DNA from: Ignavibacteria bacterium
GTDB lineage: Bacteria; Bacteroidota; Ignavibacteria; Tepidaquicellales; OLB5
DNA: 34,219 nt
Reading direction: 5' to 3'
Assembly (NCBI GenBank): GCA_020852705.1
Contig: JADZAP010000039.1
Coordinates: forward strand, 1 to 34,219
The translations under genes were made by a program, and so were the position numbers. Below, one piece after another: positions 16,839-33,966 of this stretch. Each line of letters begins with the position of its first letter. The first letter of the stretch is position 1. Below the pieces are notes generated by a model that worked only from the letters and a program-made list of their open reading frames with translations, was not told where the DNA came from and did no database searches.

Positions 16839-18575
16839 GTGAGGCAGATAACATTAATATCCATCGTTTTATTTTGTTCAGGTTTTATCCTGGCTGATTC
16901 ATCTATAGATAACAACACAGTTTCCTTTACTCAGTTTATTAACGAAATGGCAAAGTGTACAAAGTACACAACCTTTGAAAATGTTAAGATTCGGTATAAA
17001 CTGCCTGATGATAAAGAAGGGATGGATAAGCGATTTAACGGAGGAGAAGGTGAACTTTTCATTAATCAGAATATCAGGCTTGTTAACTGTGATTTTGATG
17101 TTGACTATTGGCTTGTGCTTCGCAATGTAACATTTAATGATTATTTTGCTTTTACAAATTGCTCTCCGTTAAAAATTATATTTAAAGAATGTACTTTTAA
17201 AAAAACACTGCGTGTTTTTAACAGCAATGTTGAATTTATTGATATTGACAGCTGTAAACTTGAGCATGGTTTCAAGTTCTTTAGAAATGATGTGAAAGAC
17301 AGATTAAAGATAAGCAATTCTTATTTTTCTCTTAATCAAAACCTCTTTGGTGATACCGATGCCCTTGATATGGAACCCCGCCTTTTCAGGTTTGCAAATA
17401 AACAGAATGCTTTTGATCTTAATATTTCTGACTGCATTTTTGATCTCCCTGATAATTTAAAAAACAACCCGCAGTTTTTTGTTATTCTTACTCAATCTGA
17501 TTTTAAAAATTTAACACTTTCAGCAAATGTATTTAATTGTACTGTTGATCTTTCTGAATCAACAGTTGAAAATGCTTTTGTTACTAACCAGTGTAAATAT
17601 AACGGAAGCATAGTTTTAGATGCGTTCAATATTAATCCAATTAACACTCGTGTTCAATGGTCAACTGTTGCATTTGAAAAAATATCAATATTTGATAATA
17701 AACTTAAAAAAACATTTAACGGTAAAAATATTGATAGCATTGCCGATAATGTTCTTTTTGCAAACCTTATAAGCTGTTATGCAAATTTTTACAATGCTTT
17801 TAAATCACAGGGCAATCGGATTTCTGCAAACGCCTGTTATGTGGAATGGAAAGATATAGAAACTGCTTTTCTTAAAGATGAGTATTCAAGCGGAAGAGAT
17901 AAAAGTGTATTCTTTAATTACCTTATGAATGTTTTTCTTAAAACATTTTGTGATTACGGTACTAACCCGCTTAAAGCAATACAAATTGCTTTCTATGTTC
18001 TCCTGTTCTTTGCCGGAATTTATTTCTTCTTTCCGTATTCAATATTATCTTTCCACAAGCGTTCTATGTTTGATCAGTTAAAAATATACGGAAGATATCT
18101 TTCTTCACCAAAAAGTCTGCTGGAAATTGAAGATTCAATTATTGCTAAAGAAAATAAAACTCCCACATTTTCTGATTATATGAAGTTTGTTACTGATTCA
18201 AAAGGAAAAGTACCATGGTATTTCAATATTTTTGGCAAACCATTATATTTTCTTGAACTCATAAGAAACAAACCTGCTAAGTTATTTTATAAGTTAATAG
18301 ATATATTTCCTGATGAATGGGAAGCTATGAACCGCACCAAACGCATTATTGCAACTATAATGTATGGAGTTATATTTATCCTGACCGTTTTATGGTTCTT
18401 GCTTATTCATATTCTGGATTCCGTTGCATTAAGTCTAAATGTTTTTTCAACCCTTGGTTTTGGGCAAATCCCCATAAAAGGTATTCCCAGATATTTAACT
18501 ATTCTAGAAGGGTTCATTGGCTGGTTTTTACTTAGTATATTCAGTGTATCACTTATTAGTCAGGTAATACAATAA
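16839..18575 (+). CDS. Exported beta-helix-like domain fused to a two-helix ion-channel pore
   Basis: 578 residues from a GTG start. A signal peptide (1-19) is followed by a periplasmic domain of about 350 residues made of irregular short strands with repeated N-C-x-F-like steps (LVNCDFDVDYWLVLRNVTFN, FKECTF, ISDCIFDL), like a degenerate pentapeptide/right-handed helix. Then come a membrane helix at 380-402, a cytoplasmic segment, and a C-terminal unit TM(504-526)-pore-TM(554-577). The pore loop VFSTLGFGQIP sits where K+ channels have T-V-G-Y-G-D, and it is followed by LTILEGFIGWFLLSIF, as in the Ion_trans_2 family. Pentapeptide proteins fused to such pores are known; the filter variant GFGQ is unusual. 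Transport function and ion are not proven. It follows pyk by 69 nt. Confidence 0.75.
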   Translation: MRQITLISIVLFCSGFILADSSIDNNTVSFTQFINEMAKCTKYTTFENVKIRYKLPDDKEGMDKRFNGGEGELFINQNIRLVNCDFDVDYWLVLRNVTFNDYFAFTNCSPLKIIFKECTFKKTLRVFNSNVEFIDIDSCKLEHGFKFFRNDVKDRLKISNSYFSLNQNLFGDTDALDMEPRLFRFANKQNAFDLNISDCIFDLPDNLKNNPQFFVILTQSDFKNLTLSANVFNCTVDLSESTVENAFVTNQCKYNGSIVLDAFNINPINTRVQWSTVAFEKISIFDNKLKKTFNGKNIDSIADNVLFANLISCYANFYNAFKSQGNRISANACYVEWKDIETAFLKDEYSSGRDKSVFFNYLMNVFLKTFCDYGTNPLKAIQIAFYVLLFFAGIYFFFPYSILSFHKRSMFDQLKIYGRYLSSPKSLLEIEDSIIAKENKTPTFSDYMKFVTDSKGKVPWYFNIFGKPLYFLELIRNKPAKLFYKLIDIFPDEWEAMNRTKRIIATIMYGVIFILTVLWFLLIHILDSVALSLNVFSTLGFGQIPIKGIPRYLTILEGFIGWFLLSIFSVSLISQVIQ

Positions 18576-18803: not shown

Positions 18804-20651
18804 TTGGCAAAAACAGCAGGTTCAGTTATATTAATCATATTACTTTCAACCTTAAGCTTTGCTCAGCAATACGTTACAGTATCTGCATCTCCGCAAAAAA
18901 AGGATTTCTTCCCAAGTGAAAATATCCGTATAAATGTTAAAGCTGATATCCAAAGCGGATATCATATTAATGCAAATCAGGTTAGCGATCCAGATCTTAT
19001 TCCCACTACAATAGATATTGATGCAGGCAGTCTTAAAGTAGGCAAGATTTCATGGCCCGGCTCGCATAAATTCAAATTCAGTTTTTCTGAAACAGAACTT
19101 GATGTTTATGAGGGATCAATAAATATTGGAGTAAACCTTAAAGCCCCTAAAGATATAAAACCCGGAAAGTATGATATAACAGGAAATCTCAATTATCAGG
19201 CTTGCAATGATAGAGCCTGCTTCTCTCCTAAAGATGCTCCTTTTAATGTTACAGTAGTTATTAAAGAAGATACTGCAAAAGCTGATACTACTAAAACAGA
19301 AATCCCAAAAGATACCACAAAAAAAACCGATACTGTTGATAACTCTCAGAAAAAAGATACAACAACTAAAACTCAGCTTACTGAAAATAAAAGGGATTCT
19401 TCCCAAACAATTACTTCAGTTGAAAATAAAAATCAGATTTCCCAGTATATTGAAAAAAACGGAATGTTTGTTGCTTTGCTTATAATTTTTGTGCTCGGAA
19501 TTGGTTTAAATCTTACACCATGCGTTTATCCCTTAATTCCCATTACTATTAGTTATTTTGGTGCACAGGTTTCAAACAGCAAGGGCGGAAAAATTTTAAT
19601 GGCATTGTTCTATGTGCTTGGTATGTCTGTAACTTATTCTGTACTTGGAGTTGTTGCCGCACTCACTGGCGGTGTTTTTGGAAGTCTTCTGCAGTCACCA
19701 ATTGTTGTTGGAATACTTGTTTTAATATTTATAGCATTGGCACTTAGTATGTTTGGCGTTTATGAAATTAAAATACCGCAGTCACTTGCAAATTTCAGCG
19801 GTAAAAACAGGCAGGGATACTTTGGCACTTTTTTAATGGGACTTACCGTTGGTTTTATTGCTGCTCCCTGTATTGGTCCATTAGTGTTAAGTCTGCTTGT
19901 TTATGTTGGGCAAATCGGAAGCCCGTTCCTTGGTTTTATTATGTTCTTTGTGCTTTCACTTGGATTGGGACTGCCTTATATCTTTCTTGCATTATTTTCT
20001 AGCTCAATTACCAAACTTCCCCGCTCTGGTGAATGGATGGAAGGTGTTAAGATAATTTTCGGGTTAATGATGCTTGGACTTGCATTATATACTGCTCAAC
20101 CGCTAATGTCGCCAAAACTTTATGAAATTATTTTTCCGCTCTTCCTTATCTTAGCCGGTATTTATTTAATTTTAATTGACCGTAAAGCTATCACATCAAC
20201 AACATACACACGAATAAAATACATAATTGCAATTGCAGCAATTATTTGGGGTGCTATGAACCTACATTTTGGCGAAGAGCAGGTTTCCGGCTCAGGTAAA
20301 TATGAGTGGCAAATGCTTCTTACTCAGGCACAAATTGATCTATCTGTTGGCAAATCAACTGATAAACCCACTATTATTGATTTTTACGCTGATTGGTGTG
20401 CCCAATGCAAAGAACTTGATAAATATACGTACATTAATCCCAAGGTAATTGAACTTTCAAAAAAATTCAATAATATCAAGGTTGATCTTACCAAAGGTGA
20501 TAAAGATATTGAAGGTAAATTCAAAATTCAGGGGCTCCCTGTTGTTGCATTTTTGGATAAAAACGGGAAAGAAATGGAAGATTTAAGAATTACGGGATTT
20601 TTAAAGCCCGATGAGTTTGTTAAAGTAATGGATAAAGCATTAAATCGTTAA
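18804..20651 (+). CDS. dsbD: Thiol:disulfide interchange protein DsbD
   Basis: 615 residues from a TTG start, with AGG eight bases upstream. The three-part DsbD plan is visible. A signal peptide precedes an N-terminal Ig-like alpha domain with Cys134 and Cys139 (YQACNDRACFSP). A linker rich in Lys, Thr and Asp (about 155-210) follows. The eight-helix central domain has Cys240 (LTPCVYPLIPIT) and Cys356 (AAPCIGPL). The C-terminal thioredoxin domain has the WCAQC motif (Cys532 and Cys535). The protein passes electrons from cytoplasmic thioredoxin through the membrane to periplasmic oxidoreductases. All six catalytic cysteines are present. It heads a tight four-gene operon. Confidence 0.95.
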   Translation: MAKTAGSVILIILLSTLSFAQQYVTVSASPQKKDFFPSENIRINVKADIQSGYHINANQVSDPDLIPTTIDIDAGSLKVGKISWPGSHKFKFSFSETELDVYEGSINIGVNLKAPKDIKPGKYDITGNLNYQACNDRACFSPKDAPFNVTVVIKEDTAKADTTKTEIPKDTTKKTDTVDNSQKKDTTTKTQLTENKRDSSQTITSVENKNQISQYIEKNGMFVALLIIFVLGIGLNLTPCVYPLIPITISYFGAQVSNSKGGKILMALFYVLGMSVTYSVLGVVAALTGGVFGSLLQSPIVVGILVLIFIALALSMFGVYEIKIPQSLANFSGKNRQGYFGTFLMGLTVGFIAAPCIGPLVLSLLVYVGQIGSPFLGFIMFFVLSLGLGLPYIFLALFSSSITKLPRSGEWMEGVKIIFGLMMLGLALYTAQPLMSPKLYEIIFPLFLILAGIYLILIDRKAITSTTYTRIKYIIAIAAIIWGAMNLHFGEEQVSGSGKYEWQMLLTQAQIDLSVGKSTDKPTIIDFYADWCAQCKELDKYTYINPKVIELSKKFNNIKVDLTKGDKDIEGKFKIQGLPVVAFLDKNGKEMEDLRITGFLKPDEFVKVMDKALNR

Positions 20652-24382: not shown

Positions 24383-26026
24383 ATGAAAAATTATTTACTG
24401 CTTTTTATCTTTTCCTTCACTACTGCATTTTCGCAGATTGTACCTTTTACTGTAAATTTAGATACCTCTGTTACAAAGAATATAGATAGTGCCTTGATTT
24501 ATGTAAAAAATCCCTCTAATAAAGTAATTAATGTTACATATATAAGAACAACATCTCCGTATTTTTTTACTCGTGTAAATACATTGAATATTGCACCTAA
24601 CGATAGCTCTGCTTTATGGATTCTGTATTCATCTGAACAGAATGTAACAAATCGCGGGTTCATACTGCTTGATTCAAGAGTGCCAAATGGAGGTTTGCAT
24701 TATTCATTATTATATGGACTTATAGCAACTTCAAAATATCAAGAAGTGATTTACTCGCCAACTCAAAACCTTTGGGATGAACAGCTGAAAGCAGCTTTAA
24801 AAACTATTATGTCTAATGGATATATATCCCTTGGTTATAATTCCGCCAGAGATAAAATGTTTGAAACTGTGGATGATTACGGCGGCGATACAATTGAGTG
24901 TATTTATTCCGGTAGGAGAATTTATGCAACAAACCGAACTCAAGCACAGAACCAGAATTTTGATACTGAGCATACCTGGCCTCAAAGCTTTTTTAATCAG
25001 AATGAACCGATGAGAAGCGACCTCCACCATTTGTTCCCAACATATTCACCTGCAAACAATGCAAGATCAAACTATCCATTTGGATATGTTGTTTCAGGTA
25101 TTACATACCAGGAAGGAGGTTCAAAATTGGGTAGAGATATTAATAATAATATTGTTTTTGAACCACGTGACATACAGAAAGGTAATACTGCAAGAGCAGT
25201 ATTTTACTTTGCCATAAGATATCAAAATTATGAATCATATCTCAACCTAACACAGGAAAATGCTTTACGGCAGTTCAATTCTGGTGATAGTGTTGACGCA
25301 AGAGAGAGATTAAGAAATGATAGGATTAAACAGTTTCAGAATAACAGGAATGCTTTTGTAGATCATCCCGAACTTGTGAACAGAATTGCTGCGTTTTACA
25401 CTGCATTAAACCGCTTACCCAAAGCTGAAATAAATGCTGCTCCGTTTAATGTTAATTTTGATACTCTTTCTAATTCAGGCGATACAGTAAGCTATTTTGT
25501 CTCACTCTGTAATTTTGGCAACACTAATCTTGTAATCAATTCAGTTACTTCCAATAATCCGGTTTTCACAGTTGAAAGTTTTCCTAATACCATTATCCCA
25601 AACCAGTTTGGGTATATTAAAGTAAAATTTACTCCTAATGCAAACAATACCGCATATAACGGAGAGCTGAATGTAATTAACAGCGATAGTACAATAAAAA
25701 TAGCTTTAAATGGTTTATGCGGTGTTGTAAACGGTATTACACCTGTTTCCGAAGAAATACCAACTTCATTTAAACTGAAACAGAATTACCCTAATCCGTT
25801 TAATCCATCTACAAATATTGAATTTGCCATTCCCCAAAGTTCATTTATAAAGCTATCAGTTTATGATGTTGTTGGAAGGGAAGTATCAGTATTGGTTAAC
25901 GAAAATTTAAAACCCGGTATTTACAAAACAGACTGGAATGCTGAAAATTATCCAAGCGGCATTTATTTTTATAGACTCTTTACTAATGATTTTAGCCAAA
26001 CAAAACGAATGATACTTTTAAAATAA
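24383..26026 (+). CDS. Secreted endonuclease I family protein with type IX sorting domain
   Basis: 547 residues. A signal peptide ends near AFSQ. Residues 20-115 form an Ig-like domain of the HYDIN/ASH kind. Residues about 125-345 are an endonuclease I (EndA/BsuBI-type, not restriction) domain with FDTEHTWPQSFF (Glu196, His197) and MRSDLHHLFPTYSPANNAR (Asp213, His215, His216), the metal and catalytic residues of the His-Me-like family. A second Ig-like domain (350-435) follows. The last 90 residues hold LKQNYPNPFNPSTNIEFA and GIYFYRL ... KRMILLK, the Por secretion C-terminal sorting domain. It should be exported across the outer membrane and digest extracellular DNA or RNA, perhaps for nutrition. 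The small lipoprotein gene follows by ten bases. Confidence 0.92.
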   Translation: MKNYLLLFIFSFTTAFSQIVPFTVNLDTSVTKNIDSALIYVKNPSNKVINVTYIRTTSPYFFTRVNTLNIAPNDSSALWILYSSEQNVTNRGFILLDSRVPNGGLHYSLLYGLIATSKYQEVIYSPTQNLWDEQLKAALKTIMSNGYISLGYNSARDKMFETVDDYGGDTIECIYSGRRIYATNRTQAQNQNFDTEHTWPQSFFNQNEPMRSDLHHLFPTYSPANNARSNYPFGYVVSGITYQEGGSKLGRDINNNIVFEPRDIQKGNTARAVFYFAIRYQNYESYLNLTQENALRQFNSGDSVDARERLRNDRIKQFQNNRNAFVDHPELVNRIAAFYTALNRLPKAEINAAPFNVNFDTLSNSGDTVSYFVSLCNFGNTNLVINSVTSNNPVFTVESFPNTIIPNQFGYIKVKFTPNANNTAYNGELNVINSDSTIKIALNGLCGVVNGITPVSEEIPTSFKLKQNYPNPFNPSTNIEFAIPQSSFIKLSVYDVVGREVSVLVNENLKPGIYKTDWNAENYPSGIYFYRLFTNDFSQTKRMILLK

Positions 26027-30950: not shown

Positions 30951-31000
30951 TAACATAAAGTTATTTACGTTCTTTTAAAACCAATGCCGTTGTAAACGGC

Positions 31001-31125
31001 GTTTATCAAGAAAGACTTAGGGATAAGGCCCTATCATAGTCTTAGCAACCCGCATTGAGCTATAAACCGGCAAAAAATGCGAAGGTGCTAACTCCTTCTT
31101 CAACTAAAATTGAAGGCAGATAAAC
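31001..31125 (+). ncRNA. SAM-I (S-box) riboswitch
   Basis: The P1 stem is GTTTATC (31001-31007) with GATAAAC (31119-31125). Inside are the S-box landmarks: ATCAAGAAAGACTTAGGGA, GGCCCTAT with the pairing loop, AGTCTTAGCAACC, then TGCGAAGGTGCTAACTCC and a GAAGGCAGATAAAC close. This is the class that binds S-adenosylmethionine and shuts off methionine genes. The operon behind it (metB-type gene and homoserine dehydrogenase) fits. An intrinsic terminator lies 26 nt past P1. Confidence 0.93.
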
Positions 31126-31151
31126 AGGTATTAAGGTTTTCTTCAATAACG

Positions 31152-31393: not shown

Positions 31394-32590
31394 ATGCATT
31401 TTGAAACTCAAATAATCCACGCAATTCCAGTTGATAAGCTCACCGGAGCTGTATCAACTCCTATATATCAAACTTCTACTTTCCAGCAGCAGGCACCCGG
31501 AGTGCATAACGGATTTGACTACAGCCGTACCAATAATCCAACCCGCAAAGTACTCGAAGATCTTATTGCTGAGCTTGAAGGAGGTACTCACGGTTTTGCA
31601 TTTGCAAGCGGACTTGCAGCTATTGATGCGGTAATTAAACTCTTATGCTCAGGCGATGAGGTTCTTGCAGTTGATAATATTTATGGAGGTACTTTCCGGA
31701 TCTTTACTCAAATTTACAGTAAGTTTGGAATAAATATCAAATTTACTGATACATCAGAAATCATCAATGTAGTTGATAACCTCTCTCCGCAGGTTAAATT
31801 TGTTTGGCTGGAAACACCAACAAATCCAACTTTAAAGATAAGCGATATTACAGAAATTGCAAAAGCAGCACATTCAAACGGTTCATTGCTTATTGTGGAT
31901 AATACTTTTGCATCACCTGCTTTGCAGAATCCGCTAAATCTTGGTGCTGATATTGTTATACACAGTGCAACAAAATATCTGGCAGGTCATAGCGATGTTA
32001 TTGCAGGTTTAATTGCTGTTAAAAATCATGCACTTGCCGAAAAATTTAAGTTCATACAAAATTCAAGCGGGGGAGTACTTTCTCCGTTTGATTCATGGCT
32101 TACTATAAGGGGAATTGAAACCCTTGCGCTTCGCGCTGCAAAACATTCTGAAAATGCCATTAAGATTGCCCAATATCTGCAAACAGTAGAGCACGTTCAA
32201 AATGTTTTTTATCCGGGATTGAAATCTCACAAAAATCATGATGTGGCTTCTAAACAGCAAATTGGAGGTTATGGCGGAGTAGTATCATTTACATTAAAGC
32301 ATGATTCTATAGAAGCCGCATCCAAATTTACTCAGTTAACCGGATTATTTAAGCTTGCAGAGTCTCTTGGAGGAGTTAAATCACTGATATGCCACCCGGC
32401 ACAAATGACGCATAAATCTATTCCCGCTCAATCTCGTATTGAAGCCGGAATCAGCGACTCATTAATCAGATTAAGCTGCGGAATTGAAAATGCTGAAGAC
32501 CTGATAAATGATCTTAAAATTGCATTTGGCAGACTTGATTTTATTCTTGCAAATGAATTTTCTGCAGATAGTAAAGTGAGTGTGAAATGA
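31394..32590 (+). CDS. metB: Cystathionine gamma-synthase-type PLP enzyme (methionine synthesis)
   Basis: 398 residues of the Cys/Met metabolism PLP family. It has YSRTNNPTRKVLE, FAFASGLAAIDAV, VDNIYGGTFRIF, WLETPTNPTLKI, IVDNTFASPALQNPL, the PLP lysine Lys194 in HSATKYLAGHSDV, and SLGGVKSLICHPAQMTHKSIP. The family includes cystathionine gamma-synthase, gamma-lyase and O-acylhomoserine sulfhydrylases, which sequence alone separates poorly. The SAM-I riboswitch and the coupled homoserine dehydrogenase show a biosynthetic role, so gamma-synthase or sulfhydrylase is far more likely than lyase. The stop overlaps the next start in ATGA (32587-32590). Confidence 0.88.
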   Translation: MHFETQIIHAIPVDKLTGAVSTPIYQTSTFQQQAPGVHNGFDYSRTNNPTRKVLEDLIAELEGGTHGFAFASGLAAIDAVIKLLCSGDEVLAVDNIYGGTFRIFTQIYSKFGINIKFTDTSEIINVVDNLSPQVKFVWLETPTNPTLKISDITEIAKAAHSNGSLLIVDNTFASPALQNPLNLGADIVIHSATKYLAGHSDVIAGLIAVKNHALAEKFKFIQNSSGGVLSPFDSWLTIRGIETLALRAAKHSENAIKIAQYLQTVEHVQNVFYPGLKSHKNHDVASKQQIGGYGGVVSFTLKHDSIEAASKFTQLTGLFKLAESLGGVKSLICHPAQMTHKSIPAQSRIEAGISDSLIRLSCGIENAEDLINDLKIAFGRLDFILANEFSADSKVSVK

Positions 32591-33966
32591 ATAACTTAAA
32601 CCTCACCGGAATTTCTGCTTTTAATTGGGAAAAAGATAAAACCCCAAGGAATAAATATTCTGCACCATATCAAGTCTCACAAGATAGGAATGTGAACTCC
32701 GGAAATTTAAATTTAGATTCCCAAACCGGAATTTGTGAAATGGATAATGAGTTAAATGAAAATATCCCGCTCAATATCGGACTTTTTGGTTTTGGATGTG
32801 TTGGCAAAGGTTTATATGATGTGCTTAATCATTCACAGGGACTTAATGCTATGATCTCAAAAATTTGCGTAAAAGATAGATCAAAAAAAAGACCAATCTC
32901 AATAGATAATTTCACGTTTGAAAAATATGATGTTCTTGCAAATAATGAGCACGATGTAATTGTTGAGCTTATTGATGACAGTGATGCTGCCCTTGAGATA
33001 ATCACTGATTCATTAAGCAAAGGCCGCAATGTAGTTACAGCAGGCAAAAAGGTTGTTGCAGAAAACTTTCATTTGTTCTATCAGCTGCAGCAGCAAACCG
33101 GAGCTTCTTTGCTGTATGAAGCTGCCTGTGCAGGAAGCATTCCGATTATAAGAACACTTGAAGAGTATTATGATAACGAGCTTTTAAGCTCGGTTAAGGG
33201 AATCCTTAATGGCTCTAGTAACTATATATTAACCAAGATGGAGCTTGATAAGTTATCATACATTGAAGCTTTAAAGCAGGCACAGAATGCCGGCTTTGCC
33301 GAAAGCGATCCTTTGCTTGATGTTAACGGTGAAGATGCCAAATATAAACTGTGCCTTATCGCTGCTCATGCTTTCGGTATAATTTTACAGCCCGAAAATA
33401 TTTTTAATTACGGCATTCAGAATATTACTGAGTTTGACATAAATTATGCAGCACAAAACAATCTCAGAATTAAGCTGATTGCGGAGATAAGGAAATCCTC
33501 AAATGGTTATCGTGCTTATGTTTTACCGCGTTTTGTTCCGCTTAACAAACCGCTTGCCAATATAAATTATGAGTTCAACGGAATTGAAGTAGAGGGAATT
33601 TACAGTGATAAGCAGTTATTTACCGGCAAAGGAGCAGGTTCTCATCCGACCGGTTCTGCAGTGCTTTCTGATATTTCAGCAATTACGTATAACTACAGAT
33701 ATGGCTATAAGAAACTGAAAAAAAATAAAAACCTTAACCGCCTTTTGAATTCAGTTTTTGTAATTAATTCTAATCTAGAATCAAATTTCAATCTGCGTCT
33801 GTTTATCCGCTATAATAAATCCGGCGAACTTGATCAGCTGAATATCCTTAATATAGAAGAAGATTTTCGCTCCGCTAGGGGAAATTATATAATTGCTGAT
33901 GTTGGATTTGAATCCTTGATAAAACTAAATGATGCAGGAAATAAATTGTTTGCAGGCGAGATTTAA
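32587..33966 (+). CDS. hom: Homoserine dehydrogenase
   Basis: 459 residues. The NAD(P)-binding loop is GLFGFGCVGKGLYDVL (about 66-80), followed by VVTAGKKVVAEN, the GILNGSSNYILTKM segment, FAESDPLLDVNGEDAKYKL (with the catalytic Asp250 and Lys254) and GAGSHPTGSAVLSDI. It reduces aspartate semialdehyde to homoserine, the branch point to threonine and methionine. There is no aspartokinase domain. Residues 1-61 precede the Rossmann fold and have no family counterpart; an in-frame ATG at 32740 (Met52) would remove most of them. No ACT domain is apparent; the C-terminal 90 residues are divergent. Control by the SAM riboswitch means homoserine supply here is tied to methionine need. Confidence 0.93.
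   Translation: MNNLNLTGISAFNWEKDKTPRNKYSAPYQVSQDRNVNSGNLNLDSQTGICEMDNELNENIPLNIGLFGFGCVGKGLYDVLNHSQGLNAMISKICVKDRSKKRPISIDNFTFEKYDVLANNEHDVIVELIDDSDAALEIITDSLSKGRNVVTAGKKVVAENFHLFYQLQQQTGASLLYEAACAGSIPIIRTLEEYYDNELLSSVKGILNGSSNYILTKMELDKLSYIEALKQAQNAGFAESDPLLDVNGEDAKYKLCLIAAHAFGIILQPENIFNYGIQNITEFDINYAAQNNLRIKLIAEIRKSSNGYRAYVLPRFVPLNKPLANINYEFNGIEVEGIYSDKQLFTGKGAGSHPTGSAVLSDISAITYNYRYGYKKLKKNKNLNRLLNSVFVINSNLESNFNLRLFIRYNKSGELDQLNILNIEEDFRSARGNYIIADVGFESLIKLNDAGNKLFAGEI

Follow-up and report, generated by a model that had tools for sequence, protein, structure and literature searches.

A probable potassium-channel-type pore joined to an exported beta-helix domain in Ignavibacteria, with a possible change of membrane side of its sensor module

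Introduction

Bacterial potassium-type channels are mostly known with cytosolic regulators. A gene in a 34,219-nucleotide stretch of DNA from an Ignavibacteria bacterium (this whole stretch is referred to below as the window) raises the question of whether a pore of this kind may also be governed from the periplasm. The original prediction, made from the nucleotide sequence, was of a channel-like protein with a large sensor-like domain outside the inner membrane, and with a potassium filter that ends in Gln where Asp is usual.

The channel gene and its relatives

The gene occupies positions 16839..18575 of the forward strand, on which all features described here lie, and encodes a protein of 578 amino acids (P0001) from a GTG start to a TAA stop. 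The start position is kept across the genus, and the relatives mostly use TTG or GTG at the equivalent site. The predicted reading frame with its STLGFGQIP motif (residues 537-545) is real: the frame is open, and 11 relatives are 72-83% identical to it over nearly the full length. From its amino terminus, P0001 consists of a signal-like start, a beta-helix, juxtamembrane helices, a first transmembrane segment (TM1), a basic linker of approximately 100 amino acids, a second transmembrane segment (TM2), a pore loop and a third transmembrane segment (TM3). The chain stops directly after TM3 and has no C-terminal domain in the cytosol.

Selection on these parts was estimated as pN/pS from 11 pairs of the window gene with a relative, at a synonymous-site difference of 0.72-0.81 (about 0.78 in the pore). 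The ratio is 0.009 in TM1 and 0.027 in the pore, and such strong constraint at high synonymous divergence indicates that the channel gene is kept by selection. Values of 0.201, 0.150 and 0.125 were obtained for the beta-helix, the juxtamembrane region and the linker, respectively, and the highest, 0.258, for TM2, which is the least constrained segment.

Among 99 genomes searched, the source genome included, 14 gave a match at E up to 0.001 and 13 of these hold the channel gene, namely 12 of the 13 genomes of its own genus and one from another genus of the family. The one genome of the genus without the gene is 64% complete, and the fourteenth matching genome gave a weak match to the beta-helix part. 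Its own class gave matches at E up to 1e-10 in 15 of 197 genomes. A second class, that of genome G197, gave them at E up to 0.001 in 41 of 395; this figure mixes the family, the sister family described below and weak matches. The named relatives are Ignavibacteria/Chlorobi OLB5-type metagenome-assembled genomes, together with one Cytophagales assembly at 39% identity. In total, 35 distinct family members were collected from Bacteroidota-type genomes; these are open reading frames of 480-720 amino acids that contain the filter pattern and score 150 bits or more against the profile, duplicates being removed. Left out of this count were weak or partial matches (e.g. L035-L038, L085 and L086) as well as copies that seem to be broken or truncated (L072, L074-L077). 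The copies in L074-L077, from Bacteroidia genomes, have internal stops or short frames. Several paralogues are present in some Bacteroidia lineages; genome G633 has three members, and two members stand in tandem on the minus strand of L068:1-3318, the genomes concerned being G523 and G633.

A pyruvate kinase gene lies upstream of the channel gene in all nine Ignavibacteria loci examined, and a DsbD-like gene lies downstream in three of the nine, those in which the locus showed one. The channel gene looks like a vertically kept chromosomal gene. Carriage on plasmids was rejected: no plasmid match was found for P0001 or L066. The sister-family query L109 matched 70 plasmid records, in none of which a single place covered 80% of its length, and the 25 matches listed fell within query residues 56-385, short of TM1 and the pore. 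About 70 bases separate pyruvate kinase from the channel gene in the window, and 1.6-2.8 kb separate them in other species of the genus (L016:3353-5001, L019:2930-5001 and L022:2241-5001). In the window, the gene directly downstream (18804-20651) encodes a DsbD-like thiol:disulfide interchange protein; the exported domain of its neighbour P0001 has several cysteines, which may link the two. Farther along, 24383-26026 encodes a protein with an Endonuclease I domain, a type IX secretion sorting tail (Por_Secre_tail) and a DUF1573 match, which is probably a secreted nuclease. A SAM riboswitch (RF00162, 70.5 bits) at 31000-31126 is an ordinary methionine-pathway leader, followed by genes for a Cys/Met-metabolism PLP enzyme (31394-32590) and a homoserine dehydrogenase (32587-33966).

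The pore and its selectivity filter

The T-x-G-[YF]-G filter of P0001 sits between two transmembrane segments. The first, TM2 (residues 501-524; 18339..18410), is a weakly constrained extra helix at the place of a channel outer helix. It is followed by the pore helix and selectivity filter (residues 525-549; 18411..18485), with TLGFGQ at residues 538-543 (18450-18467), and by the inner helix TM3 (residues 550-578; 18486..18572). In the proposed comparison with Ion_trans_2 (PF07885), the isolated 95-residue C-terminal fragment scores 25.2 bits, over the Pfam gathering cut-off of 22.5, and full-length P0001 scores 15.2 bits, under it. Ion_trans_2 matches the pore fragments of all 25 family rows at E up to 1 (best 1.1e-10), and in these rows the filter Thr, both filter Gly residues and two inner-helix glycines are invariant. 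Searched against the PDB, a profile of the pore fragments found 37 sequences at E up to 10 (best E 0.021; best score 18.5 bits), all with potassium-channel names except 6ufe, which is named "Transporter" and is matched in the same segment; full-length family profiles found nothing relevant there. Together, the over-threshold score of the isolated fragment and the invariant Thr and Gly residues support the prediction of a pore of the K+-channel type.

Structure prediction is less informative for this part of the protein. In the full-length AlphaFold2 model the membrane part has pLDDT mostly under 50, and a model of the pore fragment, likewise of low confidence, reached a mean of 66.8. A Foldseek search with the fragment model gave no match. 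Additionally, searches of the source genome with Ion_trans_2, Ion_trans and TrkH at E up to 0.001 returned nothing, but one of them also misses the channel gene itself, so that further channels may be present in the genome; such channels escape full-length Pfam scoring.

Free variation of the filter among close homologues, which would have spoken against the prediction, was not found: TLGFGQ is invariant in all 12 Ignavibacteria rows of the alignment, the thirteenth row, the Cytophagales protein, reading TLGFGE. The special weight originally placed on the terminal Gln does not survive comparison across the wider family. Among the 35 distinct members, in which the filter core is present by construction because its pattern was a selection criterion, the last filter residue is Gln in 13, Glu in 11, Asp in six, Asn in two, and Ala, Arg and Ser in one each. 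Gln also occurs outside the Ignavibacteria rows, in member L069, while L071 has Arg at this position and in L111 a Ser replaces the filter Thr. A provisional rule that Asp never occurs in the filter held for the first 13 diverse members and was dropped when Asp-bearing members were then found. Judged from these alignments, Gln at the filter end is a lineage trait, locally conserved at a position that tolerates several residues. This Asp is replaced in other K+ channels too, and Gln alone is therefore no sign of a lost or new function, although it might alter selectivity.

The beta-helix domain and its predicted export

Residues 1-20 (16839..16898) of P0001 form a signal-peptide-like N-terminus, and such a segment is present in 25 of 25 family rows, a call made from hydropathy and N-terminal Lys/Arg only. 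The N-terminal hydrophobic peak is 2.2-3.4 in each of these 25 rows, as opposed to 0.16-1.28 in each of 12 sister proteins, both sets having been picked for diversity for the hydropathy and charge counts. A wider automatic count gave 1.95-3.46 in 35 members and 0.51-1.68 in 24 sister proteins.

The right-handed beta-helix that follows (about residues 27-300; 16917..17738) is predicted to be periplasmic. In the AlphaFold2 model, pLDDT over ten-residue blocks of residues 21-240 is mostly 80-93, with two blocks near 72 and one at 54. By VIA-align, the nearest solved shapes are right-handed beta-helices, namely the Sf6 tailspike (Z 15.0, the highest obtained) and alginate lyases, and pentapeptide-repeat proteins also match the model at Z of about 13. 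Likeness of fold says nothing on the ligand. P0001 has no Pfam pentapeptide match at E up to 1; Pentapeptide_4 matches five of 13 family members at E up to 0.5. The domain leads into a juxtamembrane helical region (residues 304-379; 17748..17975), which was delimited by DSSP of the AlphaFold2 model and contains the motifs CYVEWKDIET and DYGTNPLK, conserved in the family alignment. Next come TM1 (residues 380-402; 17976..18044), predicted to run from periplasm to cytosol, and a basic, mostly helical linker (residues 403-500; 18045..18338), predicted to be cytosolic.

A sister family without a signal peptide

The family profile further detected proteins of approximately 550-565 residues with pentapeptide-like repeats and the filter T-[IV]-G-[YF]-G-[DE]. 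This sister family, of which 24 distinct members were found (e.g. genes in L096-L110), has no curated family name that could be found, its matches being Ion_trans_2 and, in part, Pentapeptide_3. Ion_trans_2 matches all 12 aligned members, in the first of them from TM1 to the end, and the sister profile found 174 PDB sequences, of which the 60 shown are potassium channels or a NaK-type entry named "Transporter". The beta-helix or pentapeptide N-terminus, the juxtamembrane motif, TM1, the pore and the abrupt C-terminal end are homologous in both families. Unlike P0001, with its N-terminal hydrophobic segment and two transmembrane segments ahead of the filter, the sister proteins have no signal peptide and one such segment, and their filters end in Asp or Glu only (20 and four of 24), whereas those of the window gene's family also end in Gln, Asn, Ala, Arg or Ser.

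Relative to the sister family, the linker and the extra helix TM2 are inserted in the family of the window gene. The distance from TM1 to the filter is 30-35 residues in the former and 52-158 (median 135) in the latter. By automatic hydropathy, two TM-like segments precede the filter in 34 of 35 family members and one in L111, and the sister counts are one in 21 of 24, two in two and none in one; the exceptions are probably threshold effects. Members L034, L073 and L111 have a much shortened linker between TM1 and TM2, with 52 residues from TM1 to the filter in L034 and L073, and are perhaps a minimal form of the three-helix architecture.

As judged by profile comparison (probability 99.2, E 6.5e-20, 262 columns), the two families are homologous through the juxtamembrane region, TM1 and the pore. 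The alignment pairs juxtamembrane region with juxtamembrane region, DYGTNP-TM1 with YATNP-TM1 and pore with pore, and leaves a gap over most of the linker and TM2. The combined juxtamembrane and TM1 segments score 60.1, compared with at most 18.3 in 50 column shuffles and 13.8 on reversal, and TM1 with its flank scores 42.2, compared with at most 14.1 in 50 shuffles. In these segment comparisons, which used only rows covering at least half of a segment, TM1 matches the sister TM1 only, TM3 matches the sister TM2 only, and TM2, with 23 of 25 rows kept, matches neither sister helix. Internal duplication was rejected as the source of TM2, there being no similarity between TM1 and TM2.

Sidedness of the sensor module

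Over the 25 residues after TM1, the mean net charge is +1.68 in the family and -1.92 in the sister family. The individual values are positive in 18, zero in three and negative in four of the 25 family rows; of the 12 sister rows none is positive and 11 are negative. Before TM1 the families do not differ. Since the bias after TM1 is reversed, the positive-inside rule predicts that TM1 runs from outside to inside in the family of the window gene and in the opposite direction in its sister. These directions, together with the numbers of transmembrane segments, would bring the pore loop in from the periplasm in both families, the usual orientation of K+ channels. The sister beta-helix is predicted to be cytosolic because these proteins lack a signal peptide. 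For the family of P0001, the signal-like segment and the positive charge after TM1 in most rows agree with the predicted placement of a large sensor-like domain outside the inner membrane. It is further supported by the two transmembrane segments that separate this domain from a pore loop in the normal orientation.

From this comparison it appears somewhat more probable than otherwise that beta-helix, juxtamembrane helices and TM1 moved together, as one sensor module, to the other side of the membrane within one lineage while the orientation of the pore was kept. TM1 would then have turned over, with a signal peptide and one helix gained, or lost if the change went in the opposite direction. 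With the signal peptide and the inserted helix, a sensor-TM1 module on the outside could be combined with a pore in the normal orientation. In the sister channels TM1 is the outer helix; here it is the most constrained segment and would be the gating helix, and TM2 would be the new and freer outer helix.

The question of a change of side is separate from that of a conducting channel, and its main alternative is two separate fusions. In that account, which is possible though doubtful, the protein is likewise a conducting channel and no helix turned over; a portable unit of beta-helix, juxtamembrane region and transmembrane segment was joined twice, once to a two-helix pore as its outer helix, and once, in exported form, to a pore that had an outer helix of its own. 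A weak alignment of the family TM2 with the outer helix of NaK-type channels fits this history, as does the match of the TM1 membrane core to the sister TM1, which without its flank reaches only 78.7% probability, and a Bacteroidota beta-helix protein (L085) has a similar segment before its transmembrane helix without any channel filter. It is opposed by the pores themselves: they resemble each other (32-38 bits for sister pores with the family pore profile) more closely than they do any solved channel (18.5 bits at best), and they stop at the same inner-helix position in both families.

A possible mechanism of gating

The probable explanation of P0001, whichever history led to it, is a conducting pore of the K+-channel type gated from the periplasm by the exported beta-helix sensor. 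Four subunits would form one pore in the inner membrane, and their four periplasmic beta-helices may read a periplasmic signal such as a glycan, peptidoglycan, ionic strength or a protein. From there the signal would be relayed by the juxtamembrane helices and TM1, which is nearly invariant, and would open or close the pore to K+ or to a mixture of monovalent cations. The extreme constraint on TM1 and the comparative freedom of TM2 to vary suggest that sensor and gate are coupled by TM1 and not by the new outer helix. Speaking against this explanation are the low-confidence models of the pore, the full-length Pfam score under the cut-off, the seven rows with negative or zero charge after TM1, and the weak constraint on TM2 as the supposed outer helix.

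It is unlikely, by comparison with gating of a conducting pore, that P0001 is an exported beta-helix receptor with a channel-derived but non-conducting membrane part, whose helices assemble the sensor and which signals through the cytosolic linker to a partner. The wide variation at the filter end, with Arg in L071, and the loss of the filter Thr in L111 would suit such a receptor, as would the conserved linker (pN/pS 0.125) in a protein that has no cytosolic gating domain. Against it, no part other than TM1 is as conserved as the filter core and inner helix, and six of 35 members keep the canonical Asp and a further 11 an acidic Glu.

An inverted topology, with the beta-helix outside or inside and the pore loop entering from the cytosol, is improbable. 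Its precedent is GluR0, a bacterial K+-type channel with an outside sensor and an inverted pore (PMC13099474). GluR0 has no extra transmembrane segment, however; the second one here would turn the pore back to its normal orientation, and most rows have a basic linker following TM1. An anti-phage effector of the Hailong HalA kind, which PMC13275509 describes as an ion channel and which has a pentapeptide-like segment, is very improbable, as the weak HalA matches in two of 13 family members reach 17.8 and 11 bits against a cut-off of 250 in the pentapeptide segment only, P0001 has neither such a match nor one in PADLOC, and pyruvate kinase is the constant upstream neighbour in the Ignavibacteria loci examined.

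Comparison with known systems

Searches of Pfam, NCBIfam and PADLOC gave no family that covers P0001 beyond the pore (Ion_trans_2) and scattered pentapeptide matches, and none of the open-access papers listed by the literature searches concerns a K+-type channel whose outside domain is a beta-helix or pentapeptide fold. In fold, residues of about 20-330 resemble right-handed beta-helix and pentapeptide-repeat proteins such as tailspikes, alginate lyases and Qnr/AlbG, which, unlike P0001, are soluble or virion proteins, at a sequence identity of 6-15%. The likeness to HalA (NF051894) consists of a pentapeptide-like segment joined to a channel in some family members. In the HalA scan the best of ten members scored the 17.8 bits given above, below the curated cut-off, no member matches in the membrane part, the gene context is different, and none of 12 sister members matches at E up to 1. 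As all matches are confined to the pentapeptide segment, membership of this group was rejected.

The pore is closest in kind to the two-helix pores of NaK, KcsA and KirBac (Ion_trans_2), with which it shares the pore helix, the T-x-G-[FY]-G filter and the inner-helix glycine. It differs from them in its extra transmembrane segment and exported N-terminal domain, and the similarity is weak, as seen from its best PDB match. Like GluR0 of cyanobacteria, P0001 combines a K+-type pore with an outside sensor and a signal peptide. PhoA fusions place GluR0 in an orientation opposite to that of KcsA (PMC13099474), whereas the pore of P0001 is predicted to be normally oriented and its sensor is a beta-helix; no Pfam match of the periplasmic-binding-protein type was found in P0001 or among the families matched by 13 members.

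If the pore is indeed read from the periplasm through the beta-helix, the family, which is spread over several Bacteroidota-type lineages, would be a novel form of envelope control over ion flow. Should the sensor and TM1 lie on opposite sides of the membrane in the two families, they would further provide a natural and testable case of a module that switched topology while its pore did not. Such a channel would have reached an outside sensor by a different route from GluR0, which inverted its pore.
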